Assembly (NCBI GenBank): GCA_963422465.1
Contig: OY730173.1
Location: 3,658,001-3,722,000, forward strand
Source of the DNA: Lichina pygmaea
Lineage: Eukaryota > Ascomycota > Lichinomycetes > Lichinales > Lichinaceae
Reading direction: 5' to 3'
Length of the DNA stretch: 64,000 nucleotides
Each line of letters begins with the position of its first letter. Positions within the stretch are counted from its first letter, which is position 1. The position numbers and the translations under genes were made by a program. Under the pieces are notes generated by a model that saw nothing but the letters and a program-made list of their open reading frames with translations, was not told where the DNA came from and made no database searches. Shown one piece after another: positions 9,132 through 64,000 of this stretch.

Positions 9132-9169
9132 CGTATTGAGCCAGTGTCCTATGTGTTAGAGGCTGAAAC

Positions 9170-9572
9170 TGTTAAAGGCCAGTCCACATTCACACAGAAT
9201 GTGGGTGGTCCTGTCTTCGACCGAGGAGGGCAGGGACTCAATAGATGAATAGCAAGTGGGGTAACTCTCTTGCTATTGTCACTCGTAATGTGCGTTCAGC
9301 CTGGAGAGCTAATCCCTCCGGGCTCTTTGGGGGTCTTTATACAGATGCCCCAGGGGGGGGGTCTCCTCGAGGGGTATCATCCTTTTGCGTGGACGAGCTC
9401 CTCGCTTAGCTCCTGCTCGTCCACCGGACGAGCTCCTCGCTTAGCTCCTGCTCGTCCACCGGACGAGCTCCTCGCTTAGCTCTTGCTCGTCCACCGGATC
9501 GGTCGGATGTTGTTCCGCATGACTAACACCTCTCCCTCGCTTACCTGGGCCGTTCCGGCCTAGGCCTTAACA
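9170..9572 (-). repeat. 5' LTR of B1 (403 bp)
   Basis: Same length and ends as 3184-3586. The three 35-bp palindromic units begin at 9391, 9426 and 9461. Here the stems read GGACGAGC...GCTCGTCC. Confidence 0.93.
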
Positions 9573-27518: not shown

Positions 27519-27841
27519 ACGATCTTCTTCTTCAACAACCAGCAATCTACCCACAACCAGAGAGAGAGTCTCAGGATAAGAGGAATGGTTAGAGTCTGAC
27601 TGACTCTGGAGCTAGCAGAGTCTTTGGCTCAAGGAAAGTCTAGATAGGGGGTCTGGTCCCTAGTCTAGGTTAATACTTCTAGCTTTGCCCAGAGCTTAGT
27701 TGGAAAAAGCTGCCCAGGAAAGTCTAGTCTTGGGGATTGGTCCCAGGACTAGATTATTACTGCTGGGAAACCAGGTGACTCTTCTTTCTGGCAGTACTCT
27801 GCAGACAGGAAACACCCAACCAGTGCCAAACAATCTCTAAC

Positions 27842-29263
27842 ATGGCTCCCAAGAAGAAAAAACCCACCTTTTCAGAAAGTAACACCAGAGCTACACCAGC
27901 TATACTCTCCCAACCAGCTCCCAGTCTGGCTAGCACCCAGTCCAGCTCTCCTACCCCCCAACCAGCTCCCCAGAGTGACTACAAACTAGTAGACTCCTGG
28001 ATCAAAACTCAACCAGTCCCAGAATCCATTCTGAAAAGCTGGGAAAATATCAAAAAGAACTCCTTCCCTACAGAAGCCCAGTCTAGCTCCACTGGCCTCA
28101 CCAACAGAATCTTCCAGGAGCTGGAGAATATCAACAAGCGGCTGGACAAACAAGAAGCCAAGCCATCATATGCCCAGGCTGTCCAAAAATCTATTCCAGC
28201 ACAAATCCCTCTACCTGCAAGAATTCTCAAAGAAGTTCTTGTACATCCTGGTATCCAGCCACCTGACATGGCTAATAGAACTCACATCCAGCTTTTCCAG
28301 GCTCTTCAAGACAGACTACCCAGCCTCTACAGCAAGCAGGTCAGAGCAGTAAGAAAACTTCCTTCAGGGGATATCCTTATTAACACAGAAAGCCAAGAGA
28401 CTAAAGTCTTCCTAGAGAAAAACCCTGCCTGGGTATCAGCTATCTTCACAAAGGAAGCAACCATCCAGCCCAAGAGATTTCCAGTTCTGATCCATGGAGT
28501 CAGAACAGAAGATATCCAACCTGAAGACCTGGAGAAAACCCGCCAGATAATCCAGAACAGCAACCCATCTCTGAGCAAGCAAATCACCATCCTGAGAGCC
28601 TACTGGTCTAAGAAGGCTATAGCTCAAAAGAAGCCAGTTACCTCTCTCCACCTGGATCTGGCTACCCCTGAACAAGCCAATCTTTTGATTGAGAGTGGGC
28701 TAGTGCTGGGGCACAGGATGCATGAAGCACAACCTTTTCTGGCAGACACAGTTATTGCACAATGTTTCAAGTGCTTTGGCTATGGGCACCAAGCACACTT
28801 CTGCAAGAACAAAGCTGTGTGTGGTGCCTGTGGAGGCCAGCATGAAAGAAGAGTCTGCCAAGTTCCTGAACAGCTTCTCAAGCCAAAATGCTGCAACTGC
28901 AGAGGAGCTCACCCAGCCTGGGCCAGTGTCTGTCCAGTACGCCAGGAAGCAGCCAAGAAGGCAAGAGAAGCATGGAACACACGCCCAGGAAAATATGAGA
29001 TCCCAACAGCTACCTCTGTTCCAGCTCTACAACCCCCCCCAGTTATGTCTTTCCCTCTCTCTCAGTCTCTACCAGGGGGGAAAAACATAAAACAGCTGAG
29101 CCAAGCAGAAGCTCAGAGAGACTCAGAGGTGCACTCCCAGAAGTGCAAATTCTTTCTTCAAGATCAGCCAACTCTGGAGGAAAGCTACCAGCTAACTCCT
29201 TCAAGATCTTTGATGCTGAGATGTCTGCATGAAAGACACAAAGCTGACACTTCTCCAGTATAA
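27842..29263 (+). CDS. LINE1 ORF1, Gag-like RNA-binding protein
   Basis: 473 residues from ATG 27842. The N-terminus is Pro/Ser/Thr-rich and Lys-rich (MAPKKKKPTFSES). A possible coiled-coil follows (LENINKRLDKQEAK), then a central RNA-binding-type region. Three Cys/His clusters lie at about residues 305-365: CFKCFGYGHQAHFC, CGACGGQHERRVC and CCNCRGAHPAWASVC. This is the usual layout of Tad1/Jockey-type ORF1 proteins, which coat the element RNA. It overlaps ORF2 by 35 nt in another frame, so ORF2 is probably made by reinitiation or a similar route. Confidence 0.88.
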   Translation: MAPKKKKPTFSESNTRATPAILSQPAPSLASTQSSSPTPQPAPQSDYKLVDSWIKTQPVPESILKSWENIKKNSFPTEAQSSSTGLTNRIFQELENINKRLDKQEAKPSYAQAVQKSIPAQIPLPARILKEVLVHPGIQPPDMANRTHIQLFQALQDRLPSLYSKQVRAVRKLPSGDILINTESQETKVFLEKNPAWVSAIFTKEATIQPKRFPVLIHGVRTEDIQPEDLEKTRQIIQNSNPSLSKQITILRAYWSKKAIAQKKPVTSLHLDLATPEQANLLIESGLVLGHRMHEAQPFLADTVIAQCFKCFGYGHQAHFCKNKAVCGACGGQHERRVCQVPEQLLKPKCCNCRGAHPAWASVCPVRQEAAKKAREAWNTRPGKYEIPTATSVPALQPPPVMSFPLSQSLPGGKNIKQLSQAEAQRDSEVHSQKCKFFLQDQPTLEESYQLTPSRSLMLRCLHERHKADTSPV

Positions 29264-32060
29264 TGTGCAAAAAAGCCAATCAGTCCAAGAGCTACTGCTA
29301 GCAACCTCAGCTCTCCAAGAGGTGGACATTATTGCACTTCAAGAGCCCTGGAAAAACCCTCACCTAGAAACAAGCACTTCAACTGTTTTCTCTTCCTTTC
29401 TTCCTCTCTACTGTTCAGAGATTGGCAGAACACTTTTTCTTATTAATAAAAATCTGAAACTCTCTTCTCTTCATTCTACCTTCTGGAATAAAGACTTTGT
29501 TTCTCTTGAAATCTACTTGGAAAACTCTTCTACTTCTCTTTGGGTACATAATCTCTACTTCACCCCATCAAGTCAAGAAAACTACACAGAGGCATCAGAA
29601 GCTCTTCTCTGTTTACTCCAAAATGCTTTACAAGAACAAGGACAACATATTCTTCTCACAGACTCAAATCTTCACCACCCAGACTGGTCAAAGAAAAGAA
29701 GACTGTACTCTGAGACTGCAAACAAGTTTCAAGACCTAATGAAAGATTTAAATCTGGATTTAGCTATTGCACCTTTCACCCCTACCAGAGCAAGATCTCT
29801 TTCTGAAAAACCATGTTCTTCTATTGATCTGTCTTTTATTTCTTCTTCTCTTTCTAACTCTCTGATTTTCTCTAAAGTGGCTCTTCAGTTCTTTCATCGG
29901 TCTGACCACAGACCTGTACTAACCTGCCTGGACCTGGATCCTCCAAGGAAAATCTGGAAACCAGAAAGAAACTGGAGAACACTGGACTCAAACCTTGCAA
30001 GAGTAGAGTGTGAGAAGCTACACCTGCCCTTCCACTTCCAAGACAAATATGAAGTGGATGAGTACTTGGAGTATCTTGACAACTTTCTCCAAGAAATAGC
30101 AAGCAAATCCACACAGCTCCAGAAGCAATCTGGCCACTCAGTTCCCTGGTGGAATCAAGAGATCCAAAACAAGGTTAAAGAGGAAAGAAGAGTAAGAAGA
30201 AAAGTGCAAAAAAGGCAAGCAAGTCAAGAGGAACTTGAGCAAGCAACTAAGCTCAAGAAAAAGGCAGTCAGAGATGGAAAACAGAACACTTTCAGACACC
30301 AAATCCATGAGCTGGCCAGCTCTTCAAAGTTCTGGAAGCTTGCAAAGTGGGGAAAGTCCAAAGCCAACAAGACTCCTGATCTTCCTCTGGTTCCTGACCT
30401 GGAAACACAAGAAGGAATAGCCAAAACCTTTGAGGAAAAGACTAAAGCCTTCTCACAACAGTTCTTTCCAAAAGCTCTAGTTCCAGAACCAGGCTCAGAA
30501 AGCTCCCAGACTATCTCTGAGATACAGCTCTCCCAGGAGGTAACATGTGAAGAAGTGGAGCAAATTCTGGCCAAGAAGAAACCTTTCACAGCAGGAGGGA
30601 GAGATAAGCTGCCAAATGGATTTCTGAGAGCTCTGGGGCCTAGGTTCTGCCAAGCTCTAGCTATTCTGACTTCAACATGCTGGAAACTGGAGTACTTCTC
30701 TGAAAGATTTAAGAGTGCAAAAACAGTCTGCTTGAGGAAACCTGGCAAGGGAACCTACAATCAAGCTAAAGCCTGGCGCCCTATAGCTCTGCTAAACACA
30801 ACAGGCAAGCTGATGGAAGCTATTGCTGCAGCCAGACTAAGCAAGATAGCAGAAGAAGCTGGACTATTGCCAGATATCCAGATGGGCTTTAGGAAAGGAA
30901 GATCCACAGAAGCAGCACTTTTCCTTCTAACCTCCCAAGTGGAAAAAGTCTGGAAGGAAGGCATGGTTGCATCCCTACTCTCACTGGATATCTCAGGAGC
31001 CTATGACAGAGTTCTCCCCAAGATACTACAGCAAATTCTGAAAAGAAAAGGAATACCTGCCTGGCTAGCTTCCTGGATCTACTCCTTCTGTGATAAGCGC
31101 TCTACCACTCTTGTCTTTGATGATTCTGAGTCTTGTTCTATTCCTATTCATTGTGGAGTTCCTGAAGGTTCTCCACTATCCCCCATTCTTTTTCTATTCT
31201 ACATTTCTGAATTGCATGAGACTGTGCATACTCCCTCTTCTGGTGTATCTGCCCTGGGGTTTGCAGATGATACAAATCTGCTTGCTTTTGGTCACTCCTT
31301 GAAAAGTAACCTTCTGAAGTTAAAGAACACACACCACAAATGTCTATCCTGGGCTGCAAGACATGGAATGGTCTTCTCACCTGAGAAATATGAAATACTT
31401 CATTTTTCCAGAAGAAGAGCAGACAATCTTCAGCTCAAGCTCAGACTGGGGAATGTGATTCTCAAACCAAAAGAAGAAGTGCGAGTACTTGGAGTGTACC
31501 TAGATGCAAAGCTCTACTGGCACAAACACCAGAGGATTATTCTTCAAAAAGCACAGAAAGCACTCTCTTCTTTTTCTAGAACTTCCTATTCTACTTGGGG
31601 CTTTCCAGTTCACACATCATGTCTGGTGTACACTGCTATACTGAGATCTCTACTGAGCTATGCAGTGGGGATCTGGTTTAACCCTCTAAGAAAATCCTCC
31701 AATATCTCTTCTCTTGTTTCATTTCAAAACAGATGCCTAAGACTTATTGGGGGTGCCTTCAAAGCCACTCCTTCTTTTCTATTAGAGAGTGAGCTTTTTC
31801 TTCTACCTCTAGACCTATACTTTAAATTTCGCACTGCCTGTTTTCTTTCTTCTATTCAAAACTCCCCTCTCAAATACTTTCTTGACAGTATCTTTTCCAC
31901 TATTTCCAGCTATGCCTCTCTCTTGAAGAAACCTTTAAAGGAATCCTCAACTATCTCTCCTAAGTGGAAATTCACTTGGTTAAGTCAAATAACTACTAAC
32001 CAGGCTAGTTCAAAGAAAGAACTACAAAAGCTCTTTACTAAAGAGTGGGAAGACCAATAG
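29229..32060 (+). CDS. LINE1 ORF2, endonuclease and reverse transcriptase
   Basis: 943 residues up to a TAG at 32058-32060. The APE-type endonuclease is at the N-terminus: LLQYNVQKS, DIIALQEPW, DSNLHHPDW, SIDLSFIS, SDHRPV. The RT lies at about residues 455-760, with AWRPIALLNTTGKLMEA, GFRKGRSTEAALFLL, LSLDISGAYDRV and the FADD catalytic box. The conserved PQGSP motif reads GVPEGSP here, whereas LINE3 has GVPQGSP; this change may weaken RT. After the TAG the frame stays open to 32471 and encodes the usual C-terminal Cys/His motif (CVCGQAEETAKHITSSC). No RNase H was seen. The same stop is in LINE3, and LINE2 also stops here. Confidence 0.9.
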   Translation: MKDTKLTLLQYNVQKSQSVQELLLATSALQEVDIIALQEPWKNPHLETSTSTVFSSFLPLYCSEIGRTLFLINKNLKLSSLHSTFWNKDFVSLEIYLENSSTSLWVHNLYFTPSSQENYTEASEALLCLLQNALQEQGQHILLTDSNLHHPDWSKKRRLYSETANKFQDLMKDLNLDLAIAPFTPTRARSLSEKPCSSIDLSFISSSLSNSLIFSKVALQFFHRSDHRPVLTCLDLDPPRKIWKPERNWRTLDSNLARVECEKLHLPFHFQDKYEVDEYLEYLDNFLQEIASKSTQLQKQSGHSVPWWNQEIQNKVKEERRVRRKVQKRQASQEELEQATKLKKKAVRDGKQNTFRHQIHELASSSKFWKLAKWGKSKANKTPDLPLVPDLETQEGIAKTFEEKTKAFSQQFFPKALVPEPGSESSQTISEIQLSQEVTCEEVEQILAKKKPFTAGGRDKLPNGFLRALGPRFCQALAILTSTCWKLEYFSERFKSAKTVCLRKPGKGTYNQAKAWRPIALLNTTGKLMEAIAAARLSKIAEEAGLLPDIQMGFRKGRSTEAALFLLTSQVEKVWKEGMVASLLSLDISGAYDRVLPKILQQILKRKGIPAWLASWIYSFCDKRSTTLVFDDSESCSIPIHCGVPEGSPLSPILFLFYISELHETVHTPSSGVSALGFADDTNLLAFGHSLKSNLLKLKNTHHKCLSWAARHGMVFSPEKYEILHFSRRRADNLQLKLRLGNVILKPKEEVRVLGVYLDAKLYWHKHQRIILQKAQKALSSFSRTSYSTWGFPVHTSCLVYTAILRSLLSYAVGIWFNPLRKSSNISSLVSFQNRCLRLIGGAFKATPSFLLESELFLLPLDLYFKFRTACFLSSIQNSPLKYFLDSIFSTISSYASLLKKPLKESSTISPKWKFTWLSQITTNQASSKKELQKLFTKEWEDQ

Positions 32061-43498: not shown

Positions 43499-44056
43499 TG
43501 TTGCAGTCTGTACTGTACTGTCCTATCCGAGTATAGGATTAGGGTGAGAGGTGGAAGACAGGTTGGTTCTTGCAGGAGAGGAGTGTCAAGGAGTGCGAAG
43601 AGGTTTGGTGGAATGTGGTGGTGGTGACACCTGATCAATGGCTTCGTACAAAAGGATTGTATTGAAGTAGATCTAGTTGTCTGGATCACAACATGAGTTG
43701 AAGACGATTGTTCCATAAGGGAACTATCACCAGACTATATAGTGCTGGCCTGTCGAGACAATCAAGATTGTCTTGACAGTCTTGACGTCAAGACAGGTGA
43801 GATTGTCTTGACAGTCCCACCATGTTATGCACCCTGCGTCAAGACTGGTGAGATTGTCTTGATGCTTCATGCATCCTGTGTCAAGACTGGTGAGATTGTC
43901 TTAATGCTTTATGCATCCTGTGTCAAGACTTCCGTGTGTGTCTTGACTGTCACGTGACCCATTGTTGGTTGGTCACTTGACTTCCATGGTGTCCTCTTGC
44001 CTGGCCCGCGGCCTGATTGCTTATAAATGAGTGGCTCCTATCCCTGGGTTGTAACA
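43499..44056 (-). repeat. 5' LTR of G2 (558 bp)
   Basis: Same length, ends and hairpin array as its partner at 37599-38156. Confidence 0.92.
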
Positions 44057-45355
44057 TGATGTTGAAAGTCTTATGAACTTTTTTGCTAGGTTCTTGTCCA
44101 GGTAATCTCTCAGAGCCTCAAGCTCTTTTGCTGATAGAGTGTAAATAGACCTGTGTGTGGGTTTCTTTCTGTCTTCCAGCAGAATTTTGTGATCCCAATC
44201 TTGGTGTTCTGGTAGTGTCACAACCACTTGCTCACCAAACATCTCCTGGTAGTCTTTATACTCACTTGGCAGCTGTGGTACCTGAGTCTCACCCACAGTA
44301 TCATGTGTAGTGCAAAGTTGATAGTTTCAGAGCTTTATCCAAGCCACATAGACTTACTCTTGCTGGTGGTACTTCTTCCACCCTGTATATAAGATCTCTT
44401 TGATTCTCACTTTCTCTGGCTCTGCTTGGATTGCCAGACTTCTCTTTAGAAAGACTAGGTGCCTTCTTCTCCAGTCAATCCTTGGGTTTTGGTTTTCCAA
44501 CCACAGAAGACCCAATATAACTTTGTGTAGTATCTGGACCAAGTTGAATTCTTCTGATCTGATTGCTATACTGTTGACACACAGTTGTAGATTCTTGGTC
44601 TTCTTTGTCACTTGTCCTTAGTTGTTGCAGAGTGGTATCCTGTCCACTACTGTTAGATAGTATAGATTCCTTTTCTCTTAAGTCAGGATCTTGTGCTTCC
44701 TGGCAAAACTTTCTGACATGAAGTTGCCAGTAGCTCCAGAGTCAATTGTGGTGTTTGTCAGGCACCTGTTAACTCTTATCTTGATGTGAAAATATAGGCT
44801 GTAGACTGTTATGTCAAAGCTCTGCTCAAACCCTTCTCTCCAGAGTGTTGTTTTGCCTACTCTTTGTTGCGGTCCGTACCGTACCGTCCTATCCGAGTAT
44901 AGGATTAGGGCGAGAGGCGGAAGGCAGGTTGGTTCTCGCAGGAGAGGAGTGTCAAGGAGCGTGAAGGGGTTTGGTGGAATGTGGTGGTGGTGACACCTGA
45001 TCAACAGCTTTGTACAAAGGATTGTATTGAAGTAGATCTAGTTGTCTGGATCACAACATGAGTTGAAGATGATTGTTCCATAAGGGAACTATTGCCGGAC
45101 TATATAGTGCTGGCCTGTCGAGATGATCAAGATTGTCTTGACAGTCTTGACGTCAAGACAGGTGAGATTGTCTCGACAGTCCCACCATGTTATGCACCCT
45201 GTGTCGAGACGGGTGAGATTGTCTTGATGCTTCATGCATCCTGCGTCGAGACAGGTGAGATTGTCTTGATGCTTCATGCATCATGCGTCGAGACTCCCGT
45301 GTGTGTCTCGACAGTCACGTGACCCCTTGTTGGTTGGTCACTTGACTTCTGTGTT

Positions 45356-45690
45356 TTGAACCACAAGCCCTGCTTCCAAATGTCTGACGACAACGATAAG
45401 TTGAAGTGCGCTGAGTGCACTTGTCAGGGAAAGTCCTGTGTGTCATTTTCTTGGGAGTCACTGAACATGACTCGGGATAACCTTCGCAAGAATTTGGCTG
45501 TCGATGAGGCCAAGCAGGATACTCTTGTCAAGCAGCTTGCCGAGCTGCAGGCTTGTGTGTCCCGAAAGTGAAAGGTTCTTGAGGGTGCTGAGGGTCAAGC
45601 AAAGAAGAAGCTCCAGTGCCTTGTTGCTGAAATGGAGGCGGATGGTGAAGACTTGTCGGTGACAGTCATTGATGCGTCCGCGCTGCAGGC
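45356..45690 (+). pseudogene. Antisense Cys-rich ORF region of G3
   Basis: It matches the antisense ORF of G2, with CFQMSDDNDKLKCAECTCQGKSC followed by a Glu/Lys/Leu-rich stretch. It is convergent with the chromodomain end of pol. Confidence 0.55.
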
Positions 45691-48600
45691 TGAGCTGTTC
45701 AGTCCTGCTCCTGCCGGAACTGCTGCAGGAGGAGCTGGCAGTTCGCGAGGTTCCTGAGTGGCTCCCAGGTATTTTCCGAGTCTGGGTAGTCTTTCCACTT
45801 GACAAGGTATTGCTGACCTTTTCTCTTCAGAATCTGTTCAGCCTTGAATTCCTGTTCTTCCTCTGGTTGGTAATGAAATGTTTCCTGCAAGGGTGTGCTC
45901 TGGTCGGCTAATTCGATCATTGAGATGTGAAAGTTTGGGTGTACCCGAGCGTCTCTCGGTAGTCGCAGTCTGATGTTGACTGGTCCAGTTCTTTCTTCGA
46001 CTGAAAATAGTCTGACCTTGACATGGTCCAGTTTCTTTGTTCTTGGTTTCTTGACTTTCCAATTTTTTGTGAGGAGGTAGACTTTATCCCCCTTCTTCAG
46101 CTGAGGTGCCATTTTCGATTTTTTGTCCATTTAGTGTTGCATCTTTTCTGAGGTCTCTTGAAGGTAATGCCTCATCATCGTGTGCGTTTGTCGTAGGAGC
46201 TTGTCATGTTGGAGTGCTTTCTCCGCGTTTGGTGAAGCTCTGCTTGGCATTCCGATGTTTGCGTGTCGTCCAAAATTGGCAAAGAATGGTGATTCCTTTG
46301 TTGAGTCTGATCTGTGCTGGTTGATTGCCAGCTGTGCCACTGGTAATAATTGTACCCAATTGCTGTGGGTCTGGTTGATGTAATGCCGCAAATAAGTCTC
46401 CAGGACTTGGTTTGCTCGCTCTGTCTGGCTGTCAGTTTGTGGGTGGTAGGCTGTAGACATCTTGGGTTTTGTTCCCATGGCTGCACTGATTGTTTTCCAG
46501 TAGTTGGATGTGAAAAGTTTGTCTCTGTCAGTAATGACTGTGATTGGAACTCTGTGGTCCCTGACCAATCTGTCCAGTAGGAGGTGTCCCAACTGCTCTG
46601 CTGTGTGGGTTTCCTTGAATGGTACTGCTATTAGGTATTTTGTGAATCTGTCCACAATCACCATAGTTGAGTCGTAGGTGATTCCTGTGACTGGGTCTTT
46701 GGACTTGGGTAGCTTTGTGATGAAGTCCATTGACACATCTTCCCACAGGCCTCTCGGTATCGTGTTCGGGTGTCCTTCTCCATATGGCTTGTGTCTTCCA
46801 TGCTTGTTTTTCTGGCATAGTAGACATTTGTTGATGTAGCTTGTGACGTGTTGTCAGAGATTGATGACATTGTTCCCTGCCCGTTGGATCAGGTCTGTGG
46901 TTTTGGTGATTCCTGGGTGACCATGTGCTGGATTATCGTGGTAGTTCCTTATTAGTTCTTCAGTGTCTTCTGCTGTGAGCTTGTTGATCTGTGGTTGAGG
47001 TACCAGGTTTCCTTGCTGGTCCTGCTGTAAGATTGTTCCTTGGCGTTCATCATCTTCCATGTGGTCTTTTCGTCGGCTTAGTGTGTCTGCTCTCCCATTG
47101 TCTTGTCCAGGGGTGTACAAGATCTTGAACTTGTGTTGCCCTAGGAGTTCAGCCCATCTGACTTGCCGTCTGTTCAGCTTCTTGGTTGTCGTGAACATTG
47201 TCAGATTCTTGTGGTCTGTGAGAATGGTGAGTTCGGAACTGCTTTCCGCGTACACTCTCCAGTGTTCAAGTGTGTTGACGACTGCCAGTAGCTCTTTATC
47301 GTGGATATTATAGTTTCGTTCCACTTGTGACATTTTGCGTGAGTAGTAGGCAACTGGGTGCCACTTGCCGTCTGCCTGTTGGCATAGACATGCTCCCACT
47401 GCCTGATCTGAAGCGTCCGTCTCGATTTGTGTCAGTTGGCCTGTCTTGAAGTTGAGGAGAACTGGTTCCTTGGCGCAAGCATCCTTGAGCTGTTGGAATG
47501 CTTTTTGTTGTCTCTCTGTCCACCGGTACTCCACGTCCTTCTTTGTGAGTTCTGTCAGTGGAGTTGCCATCTGTGAGTAGTTCTTGATGAACTGTCAGTT
47601 GAAGTTGGCAAATCCTAGGAAGGCTTGTACTTCCTTAACTGATGTTGGTGTTGGCCATTGCTGAATCACTTTGATTTTCTCAGGGTCAATTTTGATCCCT
47701 TCAATCCCTATGATGTATCCGAGGAATTCAACTTCCGGTTTGTTGAACTCGCATTTCTTCAGGTTGAGCTTGAGCCCTGCCTCTTGTAGGCATCGTAGAA
47801 CATCCTTCACATGTTTGGTATGTTCCTGTTGTGTGTTCGAGTAGACAAGAATGTTGTCCAGGTAGGTGATAGCTGTTTGGTCCAGGTGTGCTCTGATGAT
47901 GTTGTTGATCAATGCTTGACATGTTGCTGGTGCGTTTGTGAGTCTGAATGGCATAACCAGATACTCGTAGTGTCCGTATCAGGTTCTGAAGGCTGTCTTC
48001 CATTCTTCTCCTTTTTTTATGTGTATCAGGTTGTATGCTTCTTTCAAGTCCAGCTTGGTAAAGATTGTAGCTTGACTGATCCTGTCTCGCAATTTGTTTG
48101 CATTTGGCAACAGATATCAGTTCTTGATGGTAATGTCGTTGAGTTTCCTGTAGTCCACACAAAGTCGAAGACTTCTGTCTTTCTTTGGTGCAAATAGTAT
48201 CAGGTATCCTGCTGGCAATTGAGATTCTTGAATGAAACCCTTTTTCAGGTTTTCCTCCAGGTACTCGCGAAGTACTTGGAGCTCTTTCTCTGATAACTGG
48301 TAAATTGGTCCAAATTCTGGCTCCGTCCCTGGTTGCAACTTGATCTCATGATCCCAAGGTTGGTGCTTAGGCAACACTGCTGTCGTTGTCTCTTCCTGAA
48401 AGAGGTTATCATACCCAGGTCAGTACTCTTCAGGGATCTCCAGAGGGTTAACAACTTCCTCTCTCTTCATCTCTGACTGTTTGGCCACCTGGTTCCGGGG
48501 TGTGCCTGTCGAGGTGGACCTCTTCTCTTGAGAGTTGTCCTTTCTGTCAGTGAGGTTCCACTGAGGACTCCTTCCCTCATCTGTCCACGCCTTCTGCGGC

Positions 48601-49036
48601 TGGTAACAGGTCTGAGCTGTGTTGTTAGTGCAGTTCCTAAACGTGAGTACTCCTGTCTTCCAGTTAACAACTGGGTTGTGCTTCTTTAGCCAAGGCATCC
48701 CCAAATAGATATCCTGAGTGGCCAACTCGACAATATCAAGGTGGATCCTTTCAGCATGGTGTCTGGTAACCATTTCCATTGGCTGCGTCTCATGGCAGAC
48801 TAGCTCTGTCTGTCCATTTGCCATCGTGAGCTGATAGAGCTGCTGCTTGCGTCTCCTTCCAGTGCTGAGGGTGTCGTAAAGTTGTCTTGAAATGTAGTTC
48901 CCACTGGCTCCAGAGTCAACAAGTGCATATGTCTGTATCAGCGTGTTGGCGTATAGTGACACAGGCAATCACAGGTGCTTTGCGTTGCTAGGGGTCATGT
49001 TGTTGAGCTCCCGATGTCACCCCTTGACAAGGGAGT

Positions 49037-49444
49037 TCAGTCTTTTCCTGATCGAAGTGTCTTACCACTGACTGGGCAATGGGTCCAGCCATTCCCATCA
49101 GTTCTGAGGAATCCGTTCATGAATTTGTCTTGCTGATGCTTGTCACATCCAGGCTTGAGGCAGTACTGCCAATTGTTGACGTAGCAGTTGTGGTTGTTGC
49201 CTTGCTGTAGGAACATGAGGTGTTCGTGCCAATCATGTGTGTGCCCGGGGAATGCAGTGTGTTGGCGTTTGTCCCAAAAGTGGATCTCACACGCATCCTT
49301 CTCGCAATTGACCCAATGCTTGTGGCAGGTGGCGTGGTAGGGTGAATGTCCTCCGTACCTTCGTAGTTGTTCATGGTAGGTGCAGTAGTGCTTCGTGCAA
49401 AACCTCCACTGTAGTTCGCCGTGCCGTAGATTTCGTGGGTCCAT
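49037..49444 (-). other. Cys/His repeat module between Gag and protease (G3)
   Basis: Three related motifs appear in order: HGELQWRFCTKHYCTYH, CHKHWVNCEKDACEIH and CYVNNWQYCLKPGCDKH. The pattern is (C/H)-x6-7-C-x4-C-x2-H. The same module is present in G1 and G2, and two copies are in B1. Confidence 0.6.
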
Positions 49445-50554
49445 GCTGTAAGCATAGCTTCCTCGTGGTATCTCTTCTTTGATAGACGTGGGTTCGTCTC
49501 AGTCTCTATCAGAGGTGGTTAAGGGCTCCTGTCCCTTGTCCTGACCTGTCAGTTCTGGTAGGTCCTTGCCTCCTGATGTTGCCAGTTGGTGGACTGCTTC
49601 CAATGTCTGATCATAGTTGTCCCATTGTTCAAGGGATAGCTGAGCCTCTCCTGGTGAGTCCTCTGGCTTGATGACATTCCAGTCTCCGTCAAGCGTATTA
49701 AGTTGCTGTCGGTGCACCTTGTTCTTTGAACGACAGTCTTTCGCCATGTGGCCTAGCTTGCCACAGGCATAGCACTTCAGTGCTTTCCCTTTTTTGTTGT
49801 TCCTTCCCTTCGTGAACCTTCCCTTGTGGTGGACTGCATCCAGTTCCATGGGTGCATAGCCATATAGGTCATGTGGTGGTGTCTTGTTAGGCAGCTTGTA
49901 GTGGTTGCTCACATGCCATGCGGGGTGGCTGTATCCTCTGTCGTGGCGTTTCTCTATCGCTCGCTTGAATAGTTTGTCATCGATGTTGATTGCTTGTGCG
50001 ATGAGCTTGTCCAGTGTGTCGACCACTCGTCCGTCGAAGGTAATTTCATCCTTCATGTTTTCCTTGAGTCCACGTCGGTACATGACCATCAGGGCGTTGT
50101 CGTCCCAATCAGTCAGTACTGAGTATTGTTTGAACTGCGTGGTGTACTCTGCGGCTGAGCGTCATTGCTTGATGTGCTGGATCATTCGTATAGCCACTTT
50201 GTCTTCGTTAGATGGTCCAAGGATCCTTTTGATCTCGTCCTTGAATTGCGTCCATTTCATCATCCATTCTGATGTGCCGTCGTGGTCTCTGTTTCCTGAG
50301 AGATGTTTGTTGACGTAGGGTTTGATCCATCAATAAGCATTGCCTCTCATGTAAGTGGTTGCAAAGAGGGGCCACTTTTCCTTAGGCAGCTTTGTCTCTG
50401 GTTGGAATTGAAAGTAGACTTGGAGTTGCATGAGCCAGTCATCGACCTTGTTTCTTTCGCCGTAGAACAGGTCTGGCTTGGCAACGCTAATCTTTCCATC
50501 TGGGAAGTTGGGGTTGGTTGCTCCTGAGGTACTCATCCTTGAGGGTCTTCAAAG

Positions 50555-53078: not shown

Positions 53079-56000
53079 TCTCCAGTTTGATAGAACAGTG
53101 ACAGGACTTGATGTAAATTGGCAGTGTGAGCTTGAGTTTCCTGGGATAGTCGGAGTTCAGCTTGCGACTGTTCCAGAATCTGCGTCATTTCTCCAGATAT
53201 TTCCATAGCATCTTGGTTGCAGGCTTCACTCATGGGTGTGATACTGAGCTGTAGATGGAACCTTTTGTTGGCAAAGAACAGTGACATGCCAGAGGAATCA
53301 GACTAGGTGTTGTTCTGCGTGAACTCTGCCAGAGGAAGCCATTGAACCCAGTCATCTTGGAGATAGTTAACATAGGATCTCAGGTAGTGTTCAAGCTCCT
53401 GATTCTCTTGTTCTGTCTGACCATCTGTCTCTGGGTGGTGTCCTGAGAATAGTTGTAGCATGACATCAAGATGGGCACAGAGTACTTTCCAGAGTGAGCT
53501 GACAAACTGACCTCCTCTGTCTGAGACAATGCTCCTGGGTAAGCCATGGGTACAGACAACAAACTGGATGAACATCCGGACAAGATGCGAGGTTATTATC
53601 TCAGCACATAGCACAAAGTGGTGTTTTTTGGTGAGACAGTCAGTGATGACCCAGATGTGCTTGGCACCAGGGAAGCAGGCATCTCTTGACTTGGGCAAGT
53701 CAGTAATGAAATCTATAGCCAGATCCTGCCAACATTGCTGAGGCACAGGAAGAGACAGCAGCTCTCCTTGGCGATCACGGGCAGGCTTTGCTCAAGAGCA
53801 GACATGACAATTCCTGATGTACTACTGTATGATGTTCACCATCTTTGACTAATAGTACTAACAAGACAGAAGATTGTGGGTCTTGGTAATCCCAGTGTGG
53901 CCAGCTATTGCTTGGTCATGGGCTTCTTGGAACAGGTGTAGGTGTAGCTCATTGTTCTCAGGGATCCAGAGTCAGTTCTTGTAGAAGAGACAGTCATTTT
54001 CCAAGCTGTAGTCTGAGAGAGACACTTCTTGACTATGCCTGACACCATCCCTTAGCATCTGTGACACTGTTACCACTGGATCAACTTCAGCAAGGTTGTT
54101 ATAGGCAGCTTGGATGATGTCTGAAAGAGGTGTAGCATCAGGTTCAGTGTCAACTGGTGCAGCTTCTGAACATCACAGGATCTGGATGGGCTTGACTTGA
54201 ATCTCTGAATGTGCAAGATTCTTGGGCTTGAGGATGACTTGCTCCATGAAGTCTTGACAGAATTCACTGTCTGACAGGAGGTCTTGGGAATGTCAAGTGA
54301 GGGTATTGGCCTTGCACTGACTGCCTGGACAGTAGCTGATCTTGAAATTAAAGCATGACAAGAACTCACTCCAACAGGCTTGACAGTGGGAAAGGTGCTT
54401 TGAAGACATGAAGTACTCCAAGTTCTTGTGATCAGAGATCATCTTGACAGGTTCTGGAGATCCTTCAAGCTCTGCTCACCATTGTTCAAAGGCACAGGCA
54501 ATTGCCAGCAACTCTTTGTTGTAGATCTTGTAGTTACATTCTGCCGGCAGATGGTGGCGTGACAAGAAGACAACAGGGTGTAGAACTTCTTCATGATCTG
54601 GCTGTGACAGGACAGCACCAGAGATGTAGTCAGAAGTGTCAGTCTCAACAACACACTCCTTCTCCAGATCAAAGTGCTGCAGGATGGGTGCAATGCTGAA
54701 CACTTTCTTAATACTTTCAAACAAGTCCTGCTCTGGGGTTTCCCACTTGAAGGCAACATTCTTCTTGGTCAGAGCTGTGAGTGGGGATGCAAGCTTGGTA
54801 AAGTCTTTGATGAACCAGTGGTAGAAGTTTGCAAAGGCAATAAAGCTCTGCACTTCCTTGAGACTGGCAGGAGGCTTCCACTCCTTGATGGTGTCAGTCT
54901 TGGCTGGGTCCATGCTCACAGATCTGGGTCAGGTGTCTTCAGTGGCAGACTGAATGATGAGGCCAAGGTACTTGACTTGATACACTTCAAAGTCACACTT
55001 GGAGATGTCAACTTGCAGGCTTACATCTTGTAGTCGACTGAGAACAAGCTTGACATGCTTCCGGTGTTCCTTGAGTGTCTGACTGTAGACAAGGATATCA
55101 TCCACATAGGCAGTGTCAAAGACATCAAGGATGTCAGGTCCCAAAACATTATTGATGTAGTTCTGGAACATGCTTGAAGCATTGGCAAGACCAAAGGGCA
55201 TGACAAGGTGTTCGTAGAGGCCTGAGCGTGTGCGGAACACAGTCTTCCATTCTTCACCTTCCTTCATCCAGATACAGTTGAAGACACCAACAATGTCAAG
55301 CTTGGTGTACCACACAGCTTTGCAAAGCTGGTCCAACATCTCCCAGATCAGTGGCAGGGGGTAACAGTTCTTGATAGTGATGGTGTGGAGTGCTCTGTAG
55401 TCTACACAGAAACACAATCCACCTCCTGGCTTCTTGACAAAAAGGACTGGTGTAGCAGCAGGTGATGAAGATGCTTGAATAAAGCCCTTGTTCAGGTTCT
55501 CTGTCAGGTACTTCTTGAGAACTTCAAGTTCTTCTCTGCTCATGCTGTACAGAGGTCCAGAGGGTGCCTGGGTTCCTGGTTCTATCTTGATCTTGTGGTC
55601 AACTCCTGGGTGTAGAGGAGGAAGCTTGTCAGCGTCATCCTTGCTGAAGACATCCAGGAACTTGTGGTACTGAGCAGGGAGAAGTGTGGCAGGATCCACG
55701 CACTTCTTTAGCTTCAACACCTGCTCAAGGTCCCTCAGAGAAACACTGAACACCTGGTGATCTGGCTTGGCAGCAAGGAGAGAAAATGCGGTAGCATTGA
55801 TGGGGATTGGCGTGGCAGAAAGGGGCTTGGGATCCTGAGACTTTCCAGCAGATGTCTTGGCTTCAAGATCCAAAGAGATTGGATAGCCATTGTTTGACTT
55901 GAGGCATGTGGATCAGCAGTGATCTGACTTGAACATGATTAAGGTGTTTGTCCAATCAATGTGTGGCCTGTGCTTCTAGAGCCATGGCATCCCCAGAATC

Positions 56001-57628: not shown

Positions 57629-58133
57629 TTGGTAACTAGTGGCATACTGGTTATATCAATCTTGTAATATGTTGTGTCAAATTCAGAGATCAGGTCATCC
57701 TCCCAATGAACTTTATGAATCTGGTTTTGGACTATGTACAGATCCTCCAGTGATCTCTGTAGATTGTTCTCTAGTGTCTTGATGTGCTGTTTGAGATTGT
57801 CCTTCTGTCCAAGAAGTGTCACCTCTGACTGGTTCATGGGTAGCATGCCTCTGGGAGCTCTCAGTGGCTTCTGAATACTTTTGCCTTTCCAGGTGCTGGT
57901 GGTGTTCAGCTGATTACTCTTACCTTCTTCTCTTCTCTTACTTTGGCAGTTGGCTGGAAGGTGTCCTACTTTCTGGCAATTGTAACACTTCTGTGTTTCT
58001 TTCTTCTTTGTTGCCTGTGGTGTTGTCACATTGATTTCTATAGGCATCAGGCTGTACTTTTCCTGTGCTGGTGTTGTCTTCTTGCTCTATGGCTTCACAT
58101 GCTTGCCTCACTTCTCAAGCTCTTGTTCAAACT

Positions 58134-58244
58134 GGCCTGCGACGACTCAAACCTCCACGTGGTGCAGGCTGGGAACCTCGGGGCAGCGATAGCAGGCAGT
58201 CTCCCAAGCTGCTTGTAGTCGCTGCACCGAGAGCTAATTGAGTC
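58134..58244 (+). ncRNA. HDV-like self-cleaving ribozyme candidate (LINE3)
   Basis: Helices appear in the HDV order. P1 is GGCCTGC (58134-58140) with GCAGGCT (58164-58170), closing with the G-U wobble typical of P1. P2 is GACTCAA (58144-58150) with TTGAGTC (58238-58244). P3 is ACC/GGT around loop TCCACGT (58154-58160). GGGAA follows P1. P4 is CTCGGGGCAGCGA (58077+100 region, 58177-58189) with TCGCTGCACCGAG (58219-58231). J4/2 is AGCTAA, whose C would be the catalytic base. Cleavage is predicted just 5' of G58134, which is the element's first base. The fold is by eye. Confidence 0.8.
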
Positions 58245-59254
58245 ACCGGTCGAGCTGCTGGTGCCCGCGGAGCGACAGGCCACCGGAGGTGTCGCGCAGG
58301 CACTGTGGACACCCCCGTGAAGTGACATCAGCAGAACAGAGGACTTCGACCAAACTGGTTACGAAAACCACCCGACAGATGTCTACCGTGTACGCTACAG
58401 CCTGAAGCCAGCCTTGCAACTGGTGGATGTGAAGTCTAGACACCTGACAGGGCACCTCTGGAGTAGACAAGAGGAGTTCCTATCGCACACCCCCCTTCTA
58501 GCAGAGTCTCCAGCAGCTGATGCATCGAGGATCTTGTTCTAGGAGGGGAGTGATGTCTGTACCGCGGTGTTGTTAATCGAACAGGGACTACGTGTTAAAA
58601 AAGGCGAGCAGGTGGCACGAAGGGTTTCCGCCACTCCAGTACCTAAGGGCTGTGTGATAGTCAAAGTGCTGGCTTGATGGTTTTGCCTAAGGTCTTGCCA
58701 CAGATTCTCTTCAGGCCACCTACAGACCGGGGCCAGGGCACTGGATCTCCAGTGGGCCACTACGTACAACCGGGGCCCCACAGGCGACAGCGGGCAGACG
58801 GAGACTTCTCCCTACTTGGTTAGTGGACTGGAAAGGCAGTCCTGCAGGTGCTGGCATGGCCTGCAGGGTCCGTAGAGTCTGCGAGGCATGGTCGGCCTCT
58901 GTACGAGAGATCTACAGAGGTAACATGAAACAGCGAGAGCTGCAGGGCGTGGCATATAATGGCAGTGACGGCAGTAGGGTCTGGGCCTACTACGAGACTG
59001 TCTATATGGCCCGAGAGGACGGAAGCGCATGCCGGTCTGTACAGAGTGCAGGCTCAGGCTGCAAATGACAGGCTCAAGAAGCAAACTGCAGTTGGAGCGT
59101 GGGCTCCGGGCTGGCAACCCGGCGCTCCGAAGCAGGACCTAGGGGTGAGCGTACACGGCGGAGCGCAAAAGGCCTCAGGACTGCGGGGAAGCGTGGCAGA
59201 GACCCTGCAAGGGATAGCGACTCTGCGCTATGCCTCGGCATAGCTCAACTGTGG
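58245..59254 (+). other. Non-coding 5' module of LINE3
   Basis: About 1 kb of GC- and CpG-rich sequence with no match in LINE1 or LINE2. The longest sensible frame (58823-59068) is 81 residues without a recognised domain. It may be the 5' UTR of another LINE, or an unrelated transcript captured by template switching. Confidence 0.55.
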
Positions 59255-60965
59255 TCAAGCTAAAGCCTGGCGCCCTATAGCTCTGCTAAACACAACAGGC
59301 AAGCTGATGGAAGCTATTGCTGCAGCCAGACTAAGCAAGATAGCAGAAGAAGCTGGACTATTGCCAGATATCCAGATAGGCTTTAGGAAAGGAAGATCCA
59401 CAGAAGCAGCACTTTTCCTTCTAACCTCCCAAGTGGAAAAAGTCTGGAAGGAAAGCATGGTTGGATCCCTACTCTCACTGGATATCTCAGGAGCCTATGA
59501 CAGAGTTCTCCCCAAGATACTACAGCAAATTCTGAAAAGAAAAGGAATACCTGCCTGGCTAGCTTCCTGGATCTACTCCTTCTGTGATAAGCGCTCTACC
59601 ACTCTTGTCTTTGATGATTCTGAGTCTTATTCTATTCCTATTCATTGTGGAGTTCCTCAAGGTTCTCCATTATCTTCTATTCTTTTTCTATTCTACATTT
59701 CTCAATTGCATGAGACTGTGCATACTCCCTCTTCTGGTGTATCTGCCCTGGGGTTTGCAGATGATACAAATCTGCTTGCTTTTGGTCACTCCTTGAAAAG
59801 TAACCTTCTGAAGTTAAAGAACACACACCACAAATGTCTATCCTGGGCTGCAAGACATGGAATAGTCTTCTCACCTGAGAAATATGAAATACTTCATTTT
59901 TCCAGAAGAAGATCAGACAATCTTCAGCTCAAGCTCAGACTGGGGAATGTGATTCTCAAACCAAAAGAAGAAGTGCGAGTACTTGGAGTGTACCTAGATG
60001 CAAAGCTCCACTGGCACAAACACCAGAGGATTATTCTTCAAAAAGCACAGAAAGCACTCTCTTCTCTTTCTAGAACTTCCTATTCTACTTGGGGCTTTCC
60101 AGTTCACACATCACGTCTGGTGTACACTGCTATACTGAGATCTCTACTGAGCTATGCAGTGGGGATCTGGTTTAACCCTCTAAGAAAATCCTCCAATATC
60201 TCTTCTCTTGTTTCATTTCAAAACAGATGCCTAAGACTTATTGGGGGTGCCTTCAAAGCCACTCCTTCTTTTCTATTAGAGAGTGAGCTTTTTCTTCTAC
60301 CTCTAGACCTATACTTTAAATTTCGCACTGCCTGTTTTCTTTCTTCTATTCAAAACTCCCCTCTCAAATACTTTCTTGACAGTATCTTTTCCACTATTTC
60401 CAGCTATGCCTCTCTCTTGAAGAAACCTTTAAAGGAATCCTCAACTATCTCTCCTAAGTGGAAATTCACTTGGTTAAGTCAAATAACTACTAACCAGGCT
60501 AGTTCAAAGAAAGAACTACAAAAGCTCTTTACTAAAGAGTGGGAAGACCAATAGGAAGAGAAGAAAAGAAGAAGCTATCCAGGCTGGCAGACTTTCTGTC
60601 AAAAGCCACACAAAAACAATCTGAAGCTCTACAAAGAGTTACAGAAAGCTGAGGCAAGTCTGCTACTGCAAATCAGGACTGGAAGAATTGGTCTGGCAAG
60701 TTTTCTTTTCAGAGCTGGAGCTCCTGACTTCCCTACCCCACTATGTGTGTGTGGCCAAGCAGAAGAAACTGCAAAACATATCACTTCTTCATGCTCTCTT
60801 TATTCAAGACAAAGACAACAAGTCTCTTTTAATCCCCAAGACTTCACCACTATTATTTCAAACCCAGAGCTACTACAGAAGTTCTTGTACTGGTTTATGT
60901 CTTTGAAAAGACTAAACCAGTTTAATCTAGCTTTCAAACTCCACTATTCCCAATCCAATACCTAG
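59255..60965 (+). pseudogene. LINE3 ORF2 fragment (RT core to C-terminus)
   Basis: It lacks the endonuclease and the start of RT. It has GFRKGRSTEAALFLL, LSLDISGAYDRV, GVPQGSPLSSILFLFYIS and the FADD box. It stops at TAG 60552-60554 exactly like LINE1, then stays open to 60965 with the C-terminal Cys/His motif. It cannot prime on its own, so it depends on a full LINE. Confidence 0.88.
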
Positions 60966-61808
60966 ATTCTCTTCTCTTACCAGAAACTTCAAGATTCCTT
61001 TTGTTACATTCCCTAGTCACACCCTGCCTTCAGTTTTTATCCCTTCAAAGGTTTTCTGAAGGAGTTCACTATTAGCTAGAAGATCTGCATGGCTGTAAAG
61101 CTACTACCAGTGTAAGAATCAAATAAATAAATAAATAAATAAATTGTTCAAACTGTCAGTTATCAATATGTACCACTGCATTGATTATATCCTCAAGATC
61201 AGTAGGTCAGTCTTTTTGTGTGATGTCATCCTTGACTTGTTCCTTGAGAGCTTGGTAGAATAGTGCTGTCAAGACACTATCCCCCCACTGTGTTCTCACT
61301 GACAACTGTTGGAATTTTGCCACAAAGTCTGACACTGACTCTGTCTGCTGTAGTGCTTGGAGCCTTTGTTCCACATCTTGTTCTTTGTCAATAACTCTGA
61401 AAGTCTTCTTTATCTGGGCCTTGAAGGTAGAGAAACTCCCAATAATCTGCCATGTCACAGTCTCTATACTAGAGAGATCTTCCTTGTTATCAAGGAAGTC
61501 TTGTAGGTAGACATTGAACTAGGCAAATGTCAGTCTGTCCAGGCAGAAGACTGTGAACAGCACCTTCTCCTGTTCCATCAGGAATTGCACAGTGTTGAAT
61601 CTGTAGTAAAGCTCAAGCTGAGAGAAGAATAATTCCAATCCCCCTTGTGATCTATCATACCTTTTCAGCATACCCATCTTCAACAGCTTTGGAGGTAAGG
61701 TGAGGGTGGTAGAGGTAGGTGGTGCCTGGGCCTGCACCTGAGGTGCAGTCTGAGCTTAGCCTGCCTGTGAAAGGGTAGAGCTGTGTGGATCTGCTATCAT
61801 ATTGAGCT

Positions 61809-61920
61809 GGCCTGCAACGACTCGAACCTCCACGTGGTGCAGTCTGGGAACCTCGGGGCAGTCGATGGCGGGCGGCTTTCCAGGCTGCTCGTAGTCGCTG
61901 CACCGAGAGCTAATCGAGTC
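61809..61920 (+). ncRNA. HDV-like self-cleaving ribozyme candidate (LINE4)
   Basis: Same helix order as the LINE3 copy. P1 is GGCCTGC (61809-61815) with GCAGTCT (61839-61845), one mismatch. P2 is GACTCGA (61819-61825) with TCGAGTC (61914-61920). P3 is ACC/GGT around TCCACGT. P4 is CTCGGGGCAG... with ...CTGCACCGAG, and J4/2 is AGCTAA. P2 has a G-C pair where LINE3 has A-T, so both strands changed together. The P1 mismatch may reduce activity. Confidence 0.76.
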
Positions 61921-61923
61921 ACC

Positions 61924-63885
61924 CTCCAGCCAGTACCAGAATCCCAGAACCAGCCAGCCAACCACCAACAACACCAGCTATCTCAGGAAATCTCCAAAGA
62001 AGATATACACAATATTTTGAAAAAGAAAAAAACTTTTACAGCTCCTGGGAAAGACACTCTACCCAACAGATTTCTAAAGGTATTAGGAGACTCTTTCAAT
62101 GAAAAGATAGCCAAAGTTCTGGAAGCCTGCTGGAAGCTAGAATATTTCCCTGACAGATACAAAGCAGCCAGAACAATATGCTTGAGAAAGCCTAGCAAAG
62201 GATCCTATTGCTATGCCAAAGCTTGGAGGCCAATAGCACTTCTCAACACAATTGGGAAGCTGATGGAAGCTCTGGCAGCCACAAAGCTAAGTGAACTGGC
62301 TGAGAAAGAAAACCTGCTACCAGAAATCCAGATAGGCTTCAGAAAAGGAAGATCAACTGAGTCTGCACTATTTCTACTCACTTCCCAAGTTGAAAAAGTC
62401 TGGAAGGAAGGAATGGTAGCCAGTCTTCTTTCTCTGGATATCTCAGAAGCTTATGATAGAGTTCTGCCAGAAATTCTCAAGAAAATCCTGGAGAGAAAAG
62501 GAATCCCCAGCTGGTTTGTTAATTGGATCTTTTCTTTCACTACCCAAAGAAAAACCTCTCTTGTTTTTGATGATTCAGAGTCTTCTTTGTTTCCAGTACA
62601 CTGTGGAGTCTGTCAAGGTTCACCTCTCTCTTCTATTTTATTTCTTTTCTATATTTCATATCTTCATAATATTGTTCATACACCAGAGAAAGGTGTATCA
62701 GCTCTGGGCTTTGCAGATGACACAAACCTTCTGGCATTTTCCCCTTCTCTTAAAAGCAATCTCCTGAAGCTAAAGTCTACTCACTCCAAGTGTTTAGACT
62801 GGGCAAGAAAACATGGAATGAAGTTTGCACCTGAAAAGTATGAACTTCTCCATTTTTCTAGAAGAAGAACAGATAATCTTCAGCTCAGTCTAAGACTTGG
62901 AGAAGTGGTACTACAGCCTAAGAAAGAAGTGCGTATTCTGGGACTACACTATGATTCCAAGCTTCTCTGGAAAAAACACCAGAAAATCATGTTACAGAAA
63001 GCTTCCAAGTTTTTCTCAGCACTTTCCAGAACTACTTTTTCTACATGGGGTCTACCTGTTCTCTCTGCTAGACTTGTCTACACTGCAATACTGAGATCAC
63101 TTCTCAGCTATGCAGTAGGAGTCTGGTTCAATCCCCACAAAAAACCTTCTAATATTTCTTCTCTAAATCTTTTCCAGACTAAATGTCTAAAAACTATAGG
63201 AGGTGTCTTCAAAGCTACTCCTACATTTCTTATTGAAGGAGAACTATTCCTACCACCTCTTGATCTTTATTTCAAATTCAGAACAGCAACTTTCCTACAA
63301 TCTTTCTATTTTTCTAATACTTCTTCTAATCCTCTCTCCTCACTTCTCTATAAGCTCTTTTCCCAGATTACTGTTTTTGTTTCTACTCTGAGAACACCTC
63401 CAAAGTCTTTGTCTACTGTCACACCTAACTGGAAAGCAAGATGGCTAGAAGAACTAATCACTAACCAAGATTACTCTAAGAAACAATTTCAAGAAGTGTT
63501 TCAGAAAGAGTGGGAAGCCAGATGGCAGGCAAACAGACAGAAGTGTTCTCCAGTCTGGGAGCTATTTTGCAGACTACCCCAAAGGAAAAATCTCAAAGTT
63601 TTCAAAGACTTGAGAAAAGCTGAAGCTAGTCTTTACTTGCAGATTCTATCAGCAAGGATAGGACTAGCCAGCTTTTTTTTCAGAGCAAATGTTCCAGACT
63701 TCCAATCCCCTCTATGTTCCTGTGGTTTTGGAGAAGAGACTGCTCAACATATCACTTTCTCTTGTAACAAGTTTCTTACTCAAAGACAGCAAGCCACTTT
63801 CTTTCCTACAATTTCTCTACTTTACTTCAAAAGCCTAAAGTGCTTAAAGAATTTCTTCTCTGGTTTATGTCTTTCAAAAGACTAG
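61924..63885 (+). pseudogene. LINE4 ORF2 fragment (RT to C-terminus)
   Basis: Roughly 650 codons are open to the stop at 63885: KTFTAPGKDTLPNRFLK, AWRPIALLNTIGKLMEAL, GFRKGRSTESALFLL, LSLDISEAYDRV, CQGSPLSSILF, the FADD catalytic box, and the C-terminal CSCGFGEETAQHITFSC. There is no endonuclease. The frame also runs upstream through the ribozyme into B2, but that part has no meaning as protein. The conserved PQGSP is CQGSP here. Confidence 0.85.
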
Positions 63886-64000
63886 ACCAGTTTAACTTAG
63901 TACACCAACTCTTACCAGAAAACCTATCATCTCTGTGATCTTATTTTCTCCAGACACTGTATATTGTCCCAGATAAATCTCTAGTCTTACCCAAGTCTCA

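Follow-up and report, generated by a model that had tools for sequence, protein, structure and literature searches.

A 64,000-nucleotide stretch of the ascomycete Lichina pygmaea (contig OY730173.1, positions 3,658,001 to 3,722,000 of the forward strand; hereafter the window) carries at positions 58134-58244 a ribozyme fold like that of hepatitis delta virus (HDV), at the very start of an inserted sequence that ends in a piece of a long interspersed nuclear element (LINE). In some LINEs of animals and trypanosomes an HDV-like ribozyme was already known to lie at the 5′ end, and ribozymes of this type had been described independently in fungi. The locus raises the question of which element the fold belongs to and what it does there. 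A reading of the sequence alone had taken it for the exact start of a fungal LINE. We found that it lies at the 5′ end of a distinct non-coding module, about 1.12 kb long, which is here fused to a LINE 3′ piece. We propose, with a probability of roughly 0.85, that the ribozyme defines the 5′ terminus of a structured RNA and that this RNA is copied by a LINE reverse transcriptase after a template jump.

The ribozyme fold and its genomic copies

The fold lies on the + strand, with predicted cleavage between 58133 and 58134. All the helices named by the sequence-only reading (P1 with a G-U pair, a 7-bp P2, a 3-bp P3, a GGGAA joiner, a long P4, and a C in J4/2) are present, and together they form the nested double pseudoknot of HDV-like ribozymes. 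P1 consists of 7 bp (58134-58140/58164-58170), with the G-U pair at the cleavage end followed by six standard pairs. P2 also comprises 7 bp (58144-58150/58238-58244), and P3 (58151-58153/58161-58163, 3 bp) directly adjoins it. The P3 stem is as first described, but its loop is really 7 nt long (UCCACGU) and not UCC alone; the CC of the loop is able to pair with the GG at 58171-58172 as P1.1. The long P4 spans 58177-58231, and J4/2 (AGCUAA, 58232-58237) places the catalytic C at 58234.

A covariance-model search, which had been proposed as a check, gave an end-to-end match with all helices to Rfam model RF00094 at 58132-58247 (40.1 bits, E value of 1.7e-4, cmscan on a 401-nt stretch), although this score is lower than the gathering score of 50. 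Genome-wide, 86 of 1614 first-look candidates in the 32.5-Mb assembly were scored; 85 matches had an E value of 10 or less, and the best score among the scored candidates was 43.9 bits (E value of 6.0e-4). At the same loose cutoff (E value of 10 or less), RF00094 also has matches in 4 of 14 control genomes. A descriptor composed of the pairing, P1.1 and the C in J4/2, without a sequence model, was run on both strands of the window and matched once, exactly at 58134, compared with three matches in 40 dinucleotide-shuffled windows.

The alignment of ribozyme copies comprised 85 sequences, 81 after the removal of duplicates, of which 41 are distinct. It had been held that substitutions breaking P1 and P2 at random would speak against the fold. 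Such random breakage was not seen: standard pairs occupy 97.8% of the 1599 pair cells of the 41 distinct copies, whereas structures slid along the same sequences pair in 29-40% of cells. Cells changed on both sides number 24, against a shuffle mean of 6.9, and this count was reached by none of 500 shuffles. None of the 81 copies departs from the catalytic C or from the four letters of P1.1, and the two subfamilies of the module described below are separated by two compensatory A-U to G-C changes, one in P2 (columns 16/107) and one in P4 (columns 62/82). In 25 copies read from loci selected by the module 3′ end, 97.4% of cells are paired. Nucleotide diversity over the first 115 columns is 0.046, compared with 0.070 for the remainder (23 of the 30 3′-selected copies, those with a recognisable 5′ end). 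On these sequence comparisons, we consider the HDV-like fold at 58134-58244 to be real and predict that it is self-cleaving.

A non-coding module joined to LINE pieces

The window copy of the module is full length and occupies 58134..59254 (+), that is, 1121 nt from the first base of P1 (G1) to ...AACTGTGG, with the ribozyme at its 5′ end. It resembles WEIRD, a non-coding RNA of Magnaporthe that is considered below. When the 116-nt ribozyme was searched against the genome, 252 first-look candidates were obtained; the 40 that were scored are 97-100% identical. The window copy was compared with 29 further genomic loci; in most of the 30 excised loci the similarity extends about 1.12 kb past G1 and ends at ...CTCAACTGTGG, and it stops earlier in L022 and L026, among others. 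A second ribozyme copy in the window (61809..61923, +) led to a second subfamily with an identical body plan and the 3′ end ...CGACTGTGG. This copy has the A-U to G-C change in P2 and one broken P1 pair (C3-U35), and its module ends at nt 115, where it is joined to a LINE fragment (61924..64000, +; RVT_1 in 61771-63882 with an E value of 2.1e-31) that leaves the window. From G1 to the 3′ end, subfamily 1 measures 1102-1161 nt (44 copies with both ends) and subfamily 2 measures 1117-1122 nt (28 copies). The assembly contains 242 module 5′ ends (up to two mismatches) and 136 + 116 = 252 3′ ends for the two subfamilies (up to one mismatch). The mean divergence is 0.160 between the subfamilies and 0.061 and 0.013 within them (20+20 copies), and at 160 columns the two have different majority letters.

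The exact 5′ end of the module coincides with the start of the insertion. In the window, the target-site duplication TTGTTCAAACT stands at 58123..58133 (+) and again at 61144..61154 (+); since its 11 nt end at 58133, G1 (58134) is the first inserted base, as the sequence-only reading had noticed. To keep the ribozyme out of the selection, 30 loci were collected by the 18-base 3′ end alone, and 29 of these could be evaluated (L034 leaves its locus). The copy starts exactly at G1 in 22 of the 29 and within 2 nt of it in two more; the other five are internally truncated, at module positions 115, 201, 465, 1080, and 1100. Target duplications were searched in 78 copies, a set other than the 78 junctions described below, with 0-3 bases allowed before G1, and were detected in 11 of 78; a control with swapped flanks gave 35 of 1533. 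In eight copies (L015, L029, L040, L043, L044, L046, L052, and L075), duplications of 12-16 nt directly follow a LINE tail and directly precede G1. The duplication of L038 lies one base off G1, and that of L018 (9 nt, two bases off, without a tail) looks like chance. In L087, a lone module (about 1485-2634) is inserted in a LINE within a 16-nt duplication and has no LINE piece of its own; it is the sole solo copy recognised among the 78. Immediately before G1 all four bases occur (C 28, T 19, A 19, and G 12 of 78), as target DNA would lead one to expect. Flanking direct repeats of 10-20 bp, as described for the WEIRD/MINE elements, are found in the copies with a detected duplication and in the window copy.

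Downstream of the window module lies a 5′-truncated LINE fragment (59255..61143, +) with reverse transcriptase (RVT_1 in 59244-60551, E value of 1.9e-31), a 3′ region and an AAATA-type tail. When 90 loci were examined by the module 3′ end (up to three mismatches, one copy kept per 40-base flank), 78 distinct junctions between the module and LINE sequence were found, all sharing one module 3′ end. Because this end served to select the junctions, the set excludes copies with another end, such as that at 61809. By eye, the flanks are pieces of LINE 5′ untranslated regions (UTRs), open reading frames (ORFs) 1 and 2, and 3′ regions, from more than one kind of LINE. Seventy-one of the 78 flanks match other fetched DNA (the best match of L060 is itself a chimera), 51 match proteins of one LINE family, and only L008 and L011 fail both tests. 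Two junctions are each common to two loci (L007/L016 and L030/L032), which could mean that certain chimeras moved as units or share a hot spot. Directly 3′ of ...GTGG, C follows in 57 of 78 junctions, CC in 45, and CCA in 17, and 21 show no match; by eye, the LINE itself often carries C letters at the junction. The combination of a full-length non-coding 5′ module of about 1.1 kb with LINEs truncated at varied sites on their 5′ side is that of the WEIRD/MINE elements.

These junctions bear on the ownership of the ribozyme. The two-ORF LINE of the same window, at 27.8-32.1 kb, contains no ribozyme copy by similarity or by the descriptor, so the ribozyme is not at the 5′ end of this coding LINE itself as it is in R2 and L1Tc, and the module joins LINE pieces at 78 distinct points. 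The assignment of the fold to a LINE is thus not sustained; it does stand at the 5′ end of a sequence moved by LINEs, but the module owns it.

Some junctions deserve separate mention. In L073 (junction about 2617), a subfamily-2 module is joined to a subfamily-1 module that starts inside the ribozyme P4, which suggests that both modules served as templates in one event. The 3′ edge of the ribozyme, nt 115, is where the L060 copy begins and where the window copy at 61809-61923 ends; a stable ribozyme fold that halts enzymes, during reverse transcription or degradation, could explain the edges in these two cases. Six copies (L009, L013, L014, L041, L044, and L045) by eye join one GC-rich LINE family near the same point, before ...AAGATGCC, and with a spread of a few bases this point appears to the eye to be a hot spot of template switching. 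In L059 and L066, the module lies by eye at or just before the start of a LINE ORF1, so that in some chimeras the ribozyme may be followed by the entire coding region of a LINE.

The module is predicted to be a structured RNA over its whole length. RNAalifold on 20+20 copies gave 24 compensatory pairs, 30 one-sided changes, and eight broken pairs between the subfamilies. Because RNAalifold seeks covariation, the fold was repeated on 30 column-shuffled and refolded sets. With 6+6 copies, there were 21 compensatory pairs compared with 8.0 in the shuffles (SD of 2.2, maximum of 15), and the fold energy was −712.9 compared with −612 (SD of 13). Folds of two single copies, set against 20 shuffles each, had z values of −3.4 and −3.9; the predicted fold of these copies is branched and 66% paired.

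Two candidate reading frames were considered and rejected. In the sense direction, a 94-codon frame occurs in five of six subfamily-1 copies and is not among the longest frames there in four subfamily-2 copies. In the antisense direction, a 204-codon open frame (nt 505-1116 of the L062 module) occurs in six subfamily-2 copies and is absent from six subfamily-1 copies; shuffled sequences reach 200 codons in 8 of 300 cases, and the frame is within chance for the composition. Among the copies examined, the two subfamilies have no reading frame in common. One frame per subfamily was searched against protein databases; the 19 and 15 proteins retrieved all derive from ENA contigs, and predicted ENA proteins of about 200 amino acids (aa) match part of the 204-codon antisense frame. 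We take these proteins for translated module copies; one of them, P0142, runs on into LINE-like sequence.

Proposed formation and nature of the module RNA

In the model we favor, module copies would be transcribed, by read-through or otherwise, and the ribozyme would cut before G1 and free an RNA with an exact 5′ end. The fold and the 5′ ends of the copies are observed, and we infer that the ribozyme makes the G1 end from the fold, from its selection and from its coincidence with the start of the insertion. The 3′ end of the free RNA would be ...CUGUGG, possibly followed by the CC or CCA seen in copies. A LINE reverse transcriptase would begin target-primed synthesis on LINE RNA, stall often at a C-rich point, jump to the 3′ end of the module RNA, and copy it through to G1. 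The junctions, the target duplications, the one module-module join and the Magnaporthe precedent point to such a jump. Integration would leave the module and the LINE 3′ end within duplications of 11-16 bp, as in the copies in which both can be read. Because 78 breakpoints meet one 3′ end, a free module RNA with G1 and a single 3′ end would be the simplest source. A jump helped by two or three bases matching ...GG(CCA) would account for the C-rich breakpoints, but such a match would not be required, since 21 junctions lack it.

Several points weigh against this proposal. A scan of the whole window at the gathering threshold, which is a cutoff of the library and says nothing about structural features, gave no RF00094 match because 40.1 bits falls under 50, and none of the scored candidates from the whole assembly reaches that score. 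The set of ribozyme copies is biased toward good ones, as 56 of the 81 came from loci chosen by the ribozyme and copies without a ribozyme end were dropped. The counts of pairs with a change on both sides (5, with 3.1 expected, reached by 23 of 500 shuffles) and of further pair types (17, with 16.0 expected, reached by 129 of 500) are both weak, and the kinship of sequences alone can outdo shuffles without any structure. Of the 25 copies from 3′-selected loci, only 12 retain every pair, and among their 54 changes at paired columns 25 destroy the pairing, so decay is common among the genomic copies. In the fold of the whole module, broken pairs between the subfamilies are not fewer than in column shuffles (9 versus 6.0). 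The constant 3′ end is partly built in, because the junctions were found by it. Moreover, cleavage is inferred, template jumping is read from its products, and the favored model includes no account of the source of the free RNA or of the formation of its 3′ end.

Other explanations must be set beside it. It is barely credible that the resemblance to HDV is accidental and that the exact 5′ ends have another cause: the subthreshold score, the three descriptor matches in shuffled windows and the RF00094 matches in control genomes would fit an accident, whereas the pair counts, the invariant active-site letters and the coincidence with the first inserted base would not. The ribozyme might also be part of the LINE's own 5′ UTR, the varied junctions then being internal deletions or products of recombination. 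Such an arrangement is described for other LINEs in the accessible literature, the positions seen in L059 and L066 agree with it, and the junctions shared by L007/L016 and L030/L032 would be those of chimeras moving as units. We regard it as highly improbable, given 78 distinct joins to LINE pieces of more than one kind, a two-ORF LINE in the window without the module, the module standing alone in L087, and the module joined to a module in L073. In our view it is unlikely that the module is the gene of a host non-coding RNA at a fixed master locus, as Gogvadze et al. proposed for WEIRD, with copies that are passive pseudogenes and a ribozyme that serves the host RNA. One sharp 3′ end and a conserved structure would agree with a host gene, as would the expression of WEIRD in Magnaporthe, which is reported in the available text of PMC2104539. 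Two subfamilies 16% apart, each of more than 100 copies, are unlike the products of one master gene, and no master locus was recognised among the part of the loci that was fetched.

A related group of ideas places the module outside the chromosomes. Were it an extrachromosomal circular or multimeric self-cleaving replicon, viroid-like or delta-like, whose linear monomers are copied by LINEs, a single ribozyme could set both ends of the monomer, and copies do start and stop at fixed points. The genomic traces would be no different if linear monomers were cut from multimers; compensatory differences between the subfamilies and the lack of a recognised master locus would also fit. Viroid-like RNAs exist in fungi, according to the accessible part of PMC11721086. 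Against this, exact patterns found no copy in the assembly that spans a 3′-to-5′ junction, RF00094 matched on the + strand only, and not on both strands, in the one copy scanned (L005, 1400-2700), and the predicted fold of two copies is branched and not a rod. A G directly before the cut is a poor base for HDV-like cleavage, and a monomer ending in GG would put a G there. One 23-base ribozyme pattern had no match in viral contigs and none in prokaryotic genomes. We consider such a replicon very improbable. A wider speculation, to which we likewise give little credence, is that the module is a self-processing parasite that lives mainly as RNA, perhaps by rolling-circle replication with its HDV-like ribozyme trimming it to unit length, and without a DNA master gene, that the approximately 250 copies are archives made when LINE reverse transcriptases switch to it, and that WEIRD of Magnaporthe, an expressed RNA for which no solo gene was known in 2007, is alike.

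Genomic surroundings and related elements

The window LINE without the module occupies 27779..32060 (+) and encodes ORF1 (494 aa) and ORF2 (946 aa), with endonuclease (Exo_endo_phos_2) and RVT_1 domains; it is a possible supplier of the mobilising machinery. Nucleolar GTP-binding protein 1 (NOG1) is the product of a host gene at 23.7-25.9 kb; it is 90% identical to its Lichina confinis counterpart, and none of the other 119 proteins in a list of 120 exceeds 73% identity. A Sec9-like SNARE gene was recognised by eye at 18.3-19.9 kb. The stretch around these two genes is rich in transposable elements, with open frames that by eye resemble gag/pol pieces of long terminal repeat retrotransposons and a DDE-type transposase at 26-9155, 9560-10345, 40672-50161, and 54929-55912, all on the − strand.

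An earlier paper (Fudal 2005) reportedly deals with the WEIRD/MINE chimeric retroelements of Magnaporthe. According to the accessible text of Gogvadze 2007 (PMC2104539), WEIRD is a well expressed non-coding RNA with a full copy of 1113 nt, joined to 5′-truncated MGL LINEs or to Mg-SINE within 10-20-bp duplications. In that text, WEIRD had no solo copy and no relative in the other genomes then available, and Gogvadze et al. did not regard it as a transposable element and suggested that it might be a housekeeping RNA. The Lichina module shares with it a full-length non-coding 5′ module of similar size (about 1.12 kb), direct joins to 5′-truncated LINEs at many points, 10-20-bp duplications, and probable multiple template jumps. 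The breakpoint motif in Magnaporthe is GCC*A/U; here CC after ...GTGG in 45 of 78 junctions may mark a similarly C-rich point, although by eye the LINE often supplies these letters. The Lichina module differs from the WEIRD described there in the HDV-like fold at its 5′ end, in several kinds of LINEs as partners, in one solo copy, in its two subfamilies, and in its occurrence in another fungal class. Compared by architecture and description only, the module is likely to belong to the WEIRD family. The accessible text of PMC2104539 describes no ribozyme, the word "ribozyme" does not occur in the available text of PMC3978060 on WEIRD/MINE, and our searches of the open-licence literature brought up no report of one in WEIRD, in MINE or in any fungal LINE.

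The nearest functional parallel, by analogy, appears to be the R2/R1 hybrid SIDEs of Drosophila, in which, as the accessible text of PMC3414825 has it, a ribozyme-bearing 5′ end stands on the 3′ end of another LINE and cleavage in vitro was demonstrated. Here too an HDV-like ribozyme lies on a non-autonomous element that would use the machinery of another LINE, and template jumps occur in vivo in the SIDEs. However, each SIDE family uses one LINE 3′ end and ribosomal DNA sites, whereas most Lichina copies have their own breakpoint and lie at dispersed sites. In the L1Tc/ingi elements of trypanosomatids, the HDV-like ribozyme Pr77 likewise lies on elements mobilised by LINEs, but within the LINE itself (PMC4035085, accessible text). 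HDV-class ribozymes of another make, with self-cleavage demonstrated, are reported from 26 fungal species in the available text of PMC5640933. These have a C-G pair at the cleavage site, loop E in P4, an extra nucleotide between P2 and P3, and variable gene contexts, whereas the Lichina fold has a G-U closing pair and adjacent P2 and P3 without an extra nucleotide and lies on a retroelement. Neither "transpos" nor "retrotransposon" occurs in the main text of PMC5640933. On the sequence evidence, we class the Lichina element as an HDV-like fold, with predicted activity, on a WEIRD-like module.

The module RNA has no evident 3′ priming signal of its own, yet it is found at many LINE breakpoints, as would be expected of a non-autonomous element that spreads as a second template. 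If WEIRD of Magnaporthe shares the ribozyme, an RNA that was unexplained in 2007 would gain a mechanism for its 5′ end, and its sharp ends would become open to test. The Lichina module suggests how such an RNA spreads and may account for the oddity of WEIRD.
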